This document shows, piece after piece, positions 47,536-50,366 of a stretch of 64,000 bases of DNA. The DNA comes from Actinobacteria bacterium IMCC25003. GTDB lineage: Bacteria; Actinomycetota; Actinomycetes; Nanopelagicales; Nanopelagicaceae. The notes beneath the pieces are model-generated. The model saw only the letters and a program-made list of their open reading frames with translations. It did not search any database and was not told where the DNA came from. A program made the translations under genes and the position numbers. Each line of letters begins with the position of its first letter. The stretch's first letter is position 1. The DNA is taken from assembly GCA_002284855.1 (NCBI GenBank), contig CP015603.1:806001-870000 (forward strand), in the 5' to 3' direction.

Positions 47536-48470
47536 CGCTTCCTGTAGATATGTCGACGACGCTAGGAAATGCATGGTTTCCAGCACCGCTCTTCACCGCC
47601 AGCGGATGCGCAAGTAGTGGTAAAGAGTTGGCGCAGTTCTTTCCACTCAATCAGATTGGTGCTGTTGTTACAAAGTCCGTGATGAGTAAGCCTCGTCATG
47701 GTCGCCCTACGCCTCGTATGGCAGAGACGCCATCAGGAATGCTCAACTCAATTGGTCTTCAAGGTCCAGGTATTGATTCATTTCTTGCCAATGATGTTCC
47801 ATGGTTACTCGAACAGAAGGCTCGAGTCATCGTATCTATTGCAGGTGAAACGGTTGAAGAGTATTCCACCCTCGCTCGCAAACTTCGTTCTGTCTCAGGT
47901 ATTAGCGCCGTTGAAGTAAATATCTCTTGCCCCAACGTGGAAAATCGCGGACTCGTCTTTGCCTGCGATCCCGACGCTTCCCGACGTGTCATCGATGGAG
48001 TACGCAAGACAATTGGTGGGGATCTTCCGATCATCGCAAAGCTATCGCCGGATGTCACAGATTTACCATCTATCGCTCGCGGAGTAGTCGATGCCGGCGC
48101 TGACGGACTTGCTCTGATCAATACAGTCTTAGGAATGGTCATCAATATTGATTCCATGCGACCTCATTTAGGTGGAAAGACTGGTGGTCTTTCGGGTCCT
48201 GCCATTAAGCCTGTTGCTGTGCGCGCCATCTATCAAGTTCACGCGGCCCTGCCCAAAGTTCCTATCCTCGGTATGGGGGGAGTAGCTTCTGGTCGCGATG
48301 CCCTCGAACTTATCTTGGCTGGCGCTTCTGGGGTATCTATAGGAACTGCAAGCTTTGGTAATCCATCAGCAATTATTGAAATTCAAAATGAACTTCGTGA
48401 TTTACTTGCAGCGCGCGGCTTTGCAACGATGCAACAAGCAATTGGTTATGCACATAGAGAAGAGGCGTGA
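47532..48470 (+). CDS. pyrD: Dihydroorotate dehydrogenase, class IB catalytic subunit
   Basis: The protein has 312 residues from ATG 47532 (overlapping pyrK). The catalytic base is Cys133 in VNISCPN, the class I choice (class II enzymes use Ser), and FMN-site segments such as GMGGVASGRDALE follow. With PyrK it oxidises dihydroorotate using NAD+ in the cytoplasm, independent of membrane quinones. It overlaps pyrF by one base step (TGATG). Confidence 0.94.
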   Translation: MTLPVDMSTTLGNAWFPAPLFTASGCASSGKELAQFFPLNQIGAVVTKSVMSKPRHGRPTPRMAETPSGMLNSIGLQGPGIDSFLANDVPWLLEQKARVIVSIAGETVEEYSTLARKLRSVSGISAVEVNISCPNVENRGLVFACDPDASRRVIDGVRKTIGGDLPIIAKLSPDVTDLPSIARGVVDAGADGLALINTVLGMVINIDSMRPHLGGKTGGLSGPAIKPVAVRAIYQVHAALPKVPILGMGGVASGRDALELILAGASGVSIGTASFGNPSAIIEIQNELRDLLAARGFATMQQAIGYAHREEA

Positions 48471-49171
48471 TGAAAGCCCCCATCGTTCTAGCTGTTGATA
48501 CACCTGATATTGAGATTGCAAAGCAATGGGTAGCGGCAACTCATGAGTCAGTCAGCGTCTATAAATTAGGCCTGGAATTCTTTCTCTCCTTCGGTCAAGA
48601 AGGTATCCGCGCTATCCAATCTGAGACTGATGCCGATATCTTCCTCGATCTTAAGCTCCACGATATTCCTCATACGGTTGAAGGCGCTGCTAAGGCGATA
48701 GCAAATCTGAAGCCACGTTTCCTCACAGTCCATGCATCCGGTGGCCGCGCAATGGTGAAGGCGGCTGTTGATGCAGTTCCAGCGACTGATGTAACTGCCG
48801 TAACAATCTTGACTTCACTCTCTGAGGAAGATCTCTTTGAAATCGGATATGCAAACCCGGCCCTAGAAAGTGCTGTTGCGCTGGCAAAGATGTCGGTGAC
48901 AGCAGGTGCTCGCGCGATTGTCTGTTCTCCATTGGAGATTGCTGCCATTCGTTCGGCAGTAGGTCCAAACCCTCACATCATTACTCCCGGCGTTCGTCCA
49001 CTCTCTGAAGTGGGAAGCGACGATCAGAAGCGCACAATGACTCCGAAGGATGCTATTGCCGCGGGTGCTTCATTCGTCGTCATTGGTCGTCCGATTACGA
49101 AGGCATGGTCCGAAGGTTCGCAAGCGATGACAACCAAGGCTCGGTCGATCGCTGACGAGATTCTCAACTAG
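48470..49171 (+). CDS. pyrF: Orotidine 5'-phosphate decarboxylase
   Basis: This 233-residue (beta/alpha)8 enzyme has the charged active site Asp60-x-Lys62-x-x-Asp65 (LDLKLHDIP) and a phosphate-gripper end GRPITKA. It makes UMP, closing the pathway. I prefer ATG 48470 over the GTG directly before it because of the TGATG coupling with pyrD. orotate phosphoribosyltransferase (pyrE) is not in the window. Confidence 0.94.
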   Translation: MKAPIVLAVDTPDIEIAKQWVAATHESVSVYKLGLEFFLSFGQEGIRAIQSETDADIFLDLKLHDIPHTVEGAAKAIANLKPRFLTVHASGGRAMVKAAVDAVPATDVTAVTILTSLSEEDLFEIGYANPALESAVALAKMSVTAGARAIVCSPLEIAAIRSAVGPNPHIITPGVRPLSEVGSDDQKRTMTPKDAIAAGASFVVIGRPITKAWSEGSQAMTTKARSIADEILN

Positions 49172-49180
49172 ATTTATCCC

Positions 49181-50053
49181 ATGGGCGCACCTCCACAACT
49201 CACCCCCGAAGAGCGCGCCCGAGCGCTTGCCAAGGCAAAGGAATCTCGACAGATTCGAGCAGCGATCAAAGCTCGAGTCAAGAGTGGTGAGTTATCTATA
49301 TCTGATGTCATCACACACGCACGCGACGACGAAGCGATTGCAAAGATGCGCGTCCTTGAACTCGTTGAATCCATGAGCGGGGTAGGAAAGATTCGTGCCA
49401 AGGCGATTCTTGAAAGGCTCGACATCTCACTAACACGTCGGATTCAAGGTCTAGGAAGACATCAGCTGCACGCGTTGGAGAATGAATTTAAGGTTCCATC
49501 AGCTCTGCTTCCGGGAAAACTCGTAGTCCTCTCTGGTCCGGGTGGTGTGGGAAAGAGCACTGTTGCCAAAGTGCTGAAGGAATCCTCACCATTCTTCGTC
49601 AGTATCTCGGCGACCACACGAGCACCACGTTTCAATGAGATTGATGGCGTTGATTATCACTTCTATTCCAACGAAGAGTTCGATGCCGCAATCGCAAACC
49701 ATGAATTTCTTGAGTGGGCCGAATTTGCAGGTAATCGTTACGGAACTCCTCGAAGAGCAGTTGAAGAATCTCTTCGCGCTGGAAAGAGCGTCTTATTGGA
49801 GATTGAAATCGCTGGAGCCAAGCAGGTAAAAGCAAAAGTTCCAGAAGCGATCCTCGTCTTCCTCGAGCCACCAACCTGGGAAGAGCTGGTCTCTCGTCTC
49901 GAAGGGCGCGGCACTGATAGCCCTGAACGCAGAGCAGCTCGTTTGGCACTTGCGCAGGAGGAGATGGCTGCAGCCTCATTCTTCGATAAAGTCCTCATAA
50001 ATGACCAGGTCGATGGGGTAGTCGCATCCCTGATAGAATTCGCGTCTGCCTAA
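49181..50053 (+). CDS. gmk: Fusion of mycobacterial-type integration host factor and guanylate kinase
   Basis: One uninterrupted 290-residue frame holds two proteins that are separate neighbours in other Actinobacteria. Residues 1-103 match mIHF (LTPEERARALAKA, RAAIKARVKSGE, then a helix-hairpin-helix around SGVGKIRAKAILERL). Residues 112-290 are guanylate kinase with P-loop GPGGVGKST at 119-127, the GMP-binding SATTRAPR and YGTP segments, and the Lys/Arg lid GRGTDSPERRAARL. No stop codon separates them, and no good internal ATG or ribosome site precedes the kinase, though an in-frame TTG sits near the junction. TAGATT (49169-49174) is 6 nt before the ATG. Confidence 0.9.
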   Translation: MGAPPQLTPEERARALAKAKESRQIRAAIKARVKSGELSISDVITHARDDEAIAKMRVLELVESMSGVGKIRAKAILERLDISLTRRIQGLGRHQLHALENEFKVPSALLPGKLVVLSGPGGVGKSTVAKVLKESSPFFVSISATTRAPRFNEIDGVDYHFYSNEEFDAAIANHEFLEWAEFAGNRYGTPRRAVEESLRAGKSVLLEIEIAGAKQVKAKVPEAILVFLEPPTWEELVSRLEGRGTDSPERRAARLALAQEEMAAASFFDKVLINDQVDGVVASLIEFASA

Positions 50054-50105: not shown

Positions 50106-50366
50106 ATGAGCGCACATATGGATGGCATTACAAATCCACCTATCGACGAACTTCTCGATAAGGCAGGTTCTAAGTACAGCCTTGTTCTCTATGCAGCAAA
50201 GCGCGCTCGTCAAATCAATGCGTACTACTCACAACTGGGTGAAGGTCTACTTGAATACGTAGGACCACTAGTTGATACACACGTTCATGAGAAGCCATTG
50301 TCAATTGCACTTCGCGAAATCAACGAAGGTCTCTTGACTATTGAAAATCTAGAACCAACTGCTTAA
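50106..50366 (+). CDS. rpoZ: RNA polymerase omega subunit
   Basis: This 86-residue RpoZ has [18 protein letters not shown] at the N-terminus, the core [12 protein letters not shown], and a C-terminal tail with [11 protein letters not shown]. It binds the beta' subunit and helps RNA polymerase assembly. The start at 50106 is chosen by an AGGAG ribosome site 5 nt upstream; the longer frame from 50082 lacks one. The order gmk-rpoZ-coaBC-metK is standard for Actinobacteria. Confidence 0.93.

Follow-up and report, generated by a model that had tools for sequence, protein, structure and literature searches.

A single reading frame joining an mIHF-type DNA-binding domain to guanylate kinase in Nanopelagicaceae and other Actinomycetota

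In actinobacteria mihF and gmk are usually found as two adjacent genes, the first encoding mIHF, which is essential in mycobacteria, and the second guanylate kinase, an essential nucleotide enzyme. In Actinobacteria bacterium IMCC25003, a 'Ca. Planktophila'-type member of the Nanopelagicaceae with a genome of 1.35 Mb in one contig, the two are found in one open reading frame. The locus raises the question whether one protein or two are made from this frame, how the genes came to be joined, and whether any holding of the kinase on the chromosome was selected or would simply follow from the joining.

Parts of the fused frame

The frame has 290 codons, running on the plus strand from the ATG at 49181 to the TAA ending at 50053, with no internal stop codon. 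Its features and neighbours are listed below; positions are those of the window, the whole stretch of 64,000 nucleotides that was analysed.

48467..49171, plus strand: pyrF (orotidine-5'-phosphate decarboxylase), upstream neighbour, 9 bp before the fused gene (profile matches)
49181..49489, plus strand: actinobacterial IHF (mIHF/sIHF) domain, residues 1-103 (NF041260, Pfam H2TH_5, phmmer matches 4ITQ/6TOB, predicted helical fold)
49376..49378, plus strand: Ser66, at the position of M. tuberculosis mIHF Pro150 (alignment)
49436..49441, plus strand: Arg86-Arg87, at the positions of mIHF Arg170-Arg171, kept (alignment)
49445..49447, plus strand: Gln89, at the position of mIHF Arg173, replaced (alignment)
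49490..49513, plus strand: inter-domain linker, residues 104-111, without a start codon (alignment of relatives, pLDDT dip)
49514..50050, plus strand: guanylate kinase domain, residues 112-290 (TIGR03263; Foldseek match 1S4Q)
49535..49558, plus strand: P-loop GPGGVGKS, residues 119-126 (G119, P120, G124 and K125 invariant in 51 fused relatives)
50051..50053, plus strand: stop codon of the fused gene (frame)
50106..50366, plus strand: rpoZ (RNA polymerase omega), downstream neighbour (profile matches)

Profile searches found that NF041260 (actino_IHF) covers residues 5-103 (model positions 3-101 of 102) with 117.5 bits at a curated cut-off of 60, and that TIGR03263 (guanyl_kin) covers residues 112-287 (model positions 1-177 of 180) with 211.9 bits at a curated cut-off of 160.45; Pfam placed H2TH_5 at 33-103 (92 bits) and Guanylate_kin at 113-287. 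An earlier sequence-only reading, which saw in this stop-free frame an mIHF-like N-terminus and an intact guanylate kinase, is borne out by both models scoring over their cut-offs. Because the first stop comes only after residue 290, the N-terminal half is an mIHF domain rather than a free-standing mIHF of ~105 aa.

Compared with mIHF of M. tuberculosis (Rv1388) and sIHF of S. coelicolor (SCO1480), the N-terminal half spans the full family model and stands in the same order before gmk and rpoZ, but it is the first domain of a longer chain, and the equivalents of R173 and P150 are replaced. The C-terminal half likewise spans the whole family model of Gmk (Rv1389, TIGR03263) and keeps the P-loop and active-site positions, with 1S4Q as its best structural match; it differs from Gmk in having no start codon of its own and in carrying a 111-residue N-terminal part from a DNA-binding protein family. 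The mIHF half is in frame ahead of gmk, with rpoZ next, and further downstream lie coaBC and metK, the last assigned by sequence only. The mihF-gmk-rpoZ order of M. tuberculosis is the same as that at the fused locus, and deletion of mihF in that species has a polar effect on gmk and rpoZ (PMC6155035). Each half is present in single copy: the whole 1.35 Mb genome gave one match to the fused protein and one to NF041260, and a whole-genome search found no second guanylate kinase and no second mIHF. The genome encodes one HU-family protein.

A phmmer search of the PDB matched the N-terminal half along its full length to sIHF (4ITQ) and mIHF (6TOB), and when the whole fused protein was used, M. 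tuberculosis Gmk was among the top matches. The AlphaFold model has a mean pLDDT of 91 and a pTM of 0.61; most blocks of the mIHF domain exceed 90, and pLDDT falls to ~69 at the junction (residues 101-110), as expected for two well-folded domains joined by a flexible tether. Foldseek with this model returned M. tuberculosis Gmk (1S4Q) first, with an E value of 1e-22 and a TM-score (target) of 0.89. In 51 fused proteins, the invariant residues of the kinase comprise, besides the four P-loop positions listed above, S143, R147, R150, Y159 and E178. The P-loop and the GMP-site Ser, Arg, Tyr and Glu positions are conserved and a guanylate kinase fold is predicted; the protein probably phosphorylates GMP and dGMP.

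One product or two

If internal initiation or cleavage took place, free mIHF and free Gmk would coexist although encoded by one frame. Downstream of codon 90 and as far as the kinase core, in-frame ATG, GTG or TTG codons are limited to TTG99 and GTG123, the latter within the P-loop, and no Shine-Dalgarno-like sequence was found ahead of either; TTG99 is not conserved, being CTT or CTG in relatives. The absence of such a signal is weak evidence, because Shine-Dalgarno-like sites are infrequent in the window (11 of 40 gene proxies) and the fused gene itself lacks one.

The junctions of relatives were also compared. A start codon lies within -7..+1 of the kinase domain in 28/28 split members of the family that were examined, while of 62 fused Planktophila 4 have an ATG at the kinase-head positions and 11 have a start codon of any kind there. 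When g260 was added, giving a set of 74 fused genes, ATG was found at the kinase head in 6, where the background rate of these genes predicts 7.5. No conserved internal start for the kinase was found at the junction of fused relatives, which agrees with the earlier statement that the frame has no clear internal start.

The start codons that do fall near the junction in some fused relatives are thus at chance level, and they and a conceivable protease cut in the flexible linker are what can be said for two products. Against cleavage, the linker is conserved neither in sequence nor in length and so offers no recognisable site; between the relatives it is mostly 8-9 residues up to the kinase, with a maximum of ~20. 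We consider two products from the frame unlikely. Internal initiation of a separate kinase is disfavoured, and the junction sequences argue for one polypeptide.

Conservation, spread and origin of the fusion

Within the genus the fused protein is full length and stop-free in 86/86 matched genomes, two further genomes, both incomplete, having given no match. At the family level 107 of 151 sampled genomes have the full-length stop-free fusion, most of the others have separate genes, and in 6 of the 151 the halves are in frame and separated by one stop. The dN/dS between close relatives is ~0.02-0.1 in both domains (~0.03-0.1 for the mIHF domain), values to be read with synonymous sites nearly saturated in many pairs, and the linker changes fast. 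Both domains are under purifying selection. This and the conservation throughout the genus exclude a chance frame or an assembly error; loss of the stop codon by sequencing or assembly error, in favour of which nothing was found, is refuted by scores of independent genomes and can be dismissed.

The fusion was also found in at least three other families. In family f29, which is probably Microbacteriaceae including Tropheryma, 110 of 118 matched genomes have it in full length and without a stop; these genomes are mostly 3-4 Mb, with one complete genome of 0.9 Mb. In family f102, genus g315 is fused and g328 partly so, with split g328 species beside the fused ones, and family f33 has one fused genus, g204. 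All of these share the domain order and a total length of about 285-310 aa with the Nanopelagicaceae proteins, but they occupy separate positions in the trees, and in f29 the mIHF part is more divergent, with Gly at the R173 equivalent. A restriction of the fusion to the Nanopelagicaceae lineage was therefore rejected, and the earlier view of it as peculiar to a streamlined lineage does not hold, given its family-wide presence in the larger genomes of f29 and its recurrence elsewhere. An apparent fusion at L225 (G353, family f71) was discarded, its junction being a run of N.

The trees require 5-7 changes of state, gain or loss, at least 4 of them forced by well-supported branches. The basal genera of the Nanopelagicaceae (g262, g266, g269 and g271) are split, and in many split genomes both genes are in frame with a single stop, 6-60 bases separating the stop from the kinase domain. 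Fusion by stop loss would be easy, because the ancestral pair is often just one in-frame stop apart. Here the earlier proposal, that normally separate neighbours were fused through loss of the intergenic stop, agrees with the data. Judged from these alignments and trees, the ancestral state is the adjacent gene pair, and the fusion is recurrent in Actinomycetota and the norm in two families; to call it a new arrangement, as had been done, was too strong. The history within the Nanopelagicaceae may comprise two or three fusions, or a fusion followed by fission in g267/g273.

In genus g273, split relatives nested near fused genera (L197-L199, L217) have the mIHF stop directly followed by the gmk start (TAGATG), possibly a secondary fission of a fused gene. 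Several small, streamlined genomes of f29 (G968 and G1048 of g366, G971 and G1051 of g369, G1037 of g435) show the kinase part alone, which suggests that the mIHF half was lost or strongly diverged after fusion. In f102, genus g326 (e.g. L312, L313) and L319 of g292 have gmk without a detectable adjoining mIHF, which seems to have been lost, moved or become very divergent.

We regard it as quite probable that the locus encodes one bifunctional polypeptide, an mIHF-type DNA-binding domain and a guanylate kinase joined by a flexible linker of ~8 residues and made in a fixed 1:1 ratio. Its ancestor would have had mihF and gmk already adjacent with nearly no spacer; the stop codon of mihF would have been lost first, the separate start of gmk would then have decayed, and the same step would have been taken several times in Actinomycetota. 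Both activities would be kept, and the kinase would be on DNA part of the time, carried by a DNA-binding domain of weak affinity and fast exchange. The simplest cause of fixation would be a near-neutral change or compact co-expression rather than a selective advantage of making nucleotides on the nucleoid.

DNA binding and the meaning of the fusion

Sharadamma et al. (2015, Biochemistry 54:4142) reportedly found that R170, R171, R173 and P150 are important for DNA binding by M. tuberculosis mIHF. In the alignment the two arginines at Arg170 and Arg171 are kept in IMCC25003 and the other two positions are changed, as listed above; in many Planktophila the R173 position is Q, A or G and the P150 position S, T, A or N. 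Split mIHFs have Pro at the P150 position in 148/148, and its loss was found in fused proteins only but is confined to one clade. By raw counts Arg or Lys is missing at the R173 position in 153/162 fused against 54/148 split proteins; after shared descent was accounted for, a link between fusion and loss of the R173 equivalent was unsupported (independent pairs, median p 0.5). The fused genus g328 retains Arg at this position, and split mIHFs also show the change.

With the P150 and R173 equivalents replaced, the domain may bind DNA more weakly or differently. These replacements, and the detection of the kinase part alone in some f29 genomes, would fit an N-terminal half that no longer binds DNA and is kept only as an appendage that aids the structure or solubility of the kinase. 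Such a half is hard to reconcile with the low dN/dS of the mIHF domain, with the invariance of Arg23, Arg26 and Lys30 and the near-invariance of Arg86/Arg87 in 51 fused proteins, or with a net charge of the domain of ~+8, the same as in split mIHFs; nor is the R173 change, shared with split mIHFs, tied independently to fusion. We therefore hold a degenerate mIHF half to be quite unlikely.

In M. smegmatis the essential msIHF is functional as EGFP, mNeonGreen and HaloTag fusions in place of the native protein (PMC10028186); since mIHF thus tolerates cargo, a cargo the size of the kinase need not abolish its function. The same protein is described as a highly mobile, low-affinity and probably monomeric binder (PMC10028186), and a kinase fused to such a domain would therefore ride on DNA just transiently. 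mIHF ranks among the ten most abundant proteins of M. tuberculosis (PMC6155035); it would be odd for such a protein to be forced into a 1:1 output with an enzyme, unless mIHF is scarcer here.

Tethering could itself be what was selected, a GMP/dGMP kinase being held on the chromosome either to supply GDP and dGDP close to replication and transcription or to let its nucleotide or alarmone state feed back on DNA binding. The repeated origin of the fusion, its family-wide retention and the conservation of both domains speak for this. However, substrates would diffuse freely in so small a cell, with no obvious gain from channelling, the R173 and P150 equivalents are gone from many fused proteins, several Nanopelagicaceae genera are split, and in a few f29 genomes the kinase was detected with no mIHF part. 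We consider selected tethering very unlikely; selection for nucleoid channelling is unsupported, and riding of the kinase on DNA would be a likely consequence of the fusion. The boldest form, a chromosome-bound guanine-nucleotide kinase whose nucleotide or alarmone state alters the DNA binding of its own nucleoid-protein domain and which evolved several times in Actinomycetota, is highly improbable; if true, it would tie the supply of guanine nucleotides directly and physically to the state of the nucleoid.

The open literature searched gave no description of an mIHF-Gmk fusion. The fusion is real, little discussed and standard in several actinobacterial lineages: an actinobacterial DNA-packaging protein and an essential nucleotide enzyme are locked in one chain in highly abundant freshwater bacteria and, apparently, across a second family. 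Such genomes are a natural experiment on the amount of free nucleoid protein that a cell needs, and on whether the nucleoid can carry a housekeeping enzyme. For annotation, these genes are likely labelled plain 'guanylate kinase', so that mIHF appears to be missing. NCBI types NF041260 as 'equivalog_domain', which is compatible with curators having met mIHF within longer proteins. Four public MAG records (L067, L088, L093 and L101), whose titles read 'Bifidobacterium breve', 'Streptomyces griseus' or 'Streptomycetaceae', hold an mIHF-Gmk locus typical of Planktophila; they are probably misnamed, their protein being 66-78% identical to the IMCC25003 fusion.
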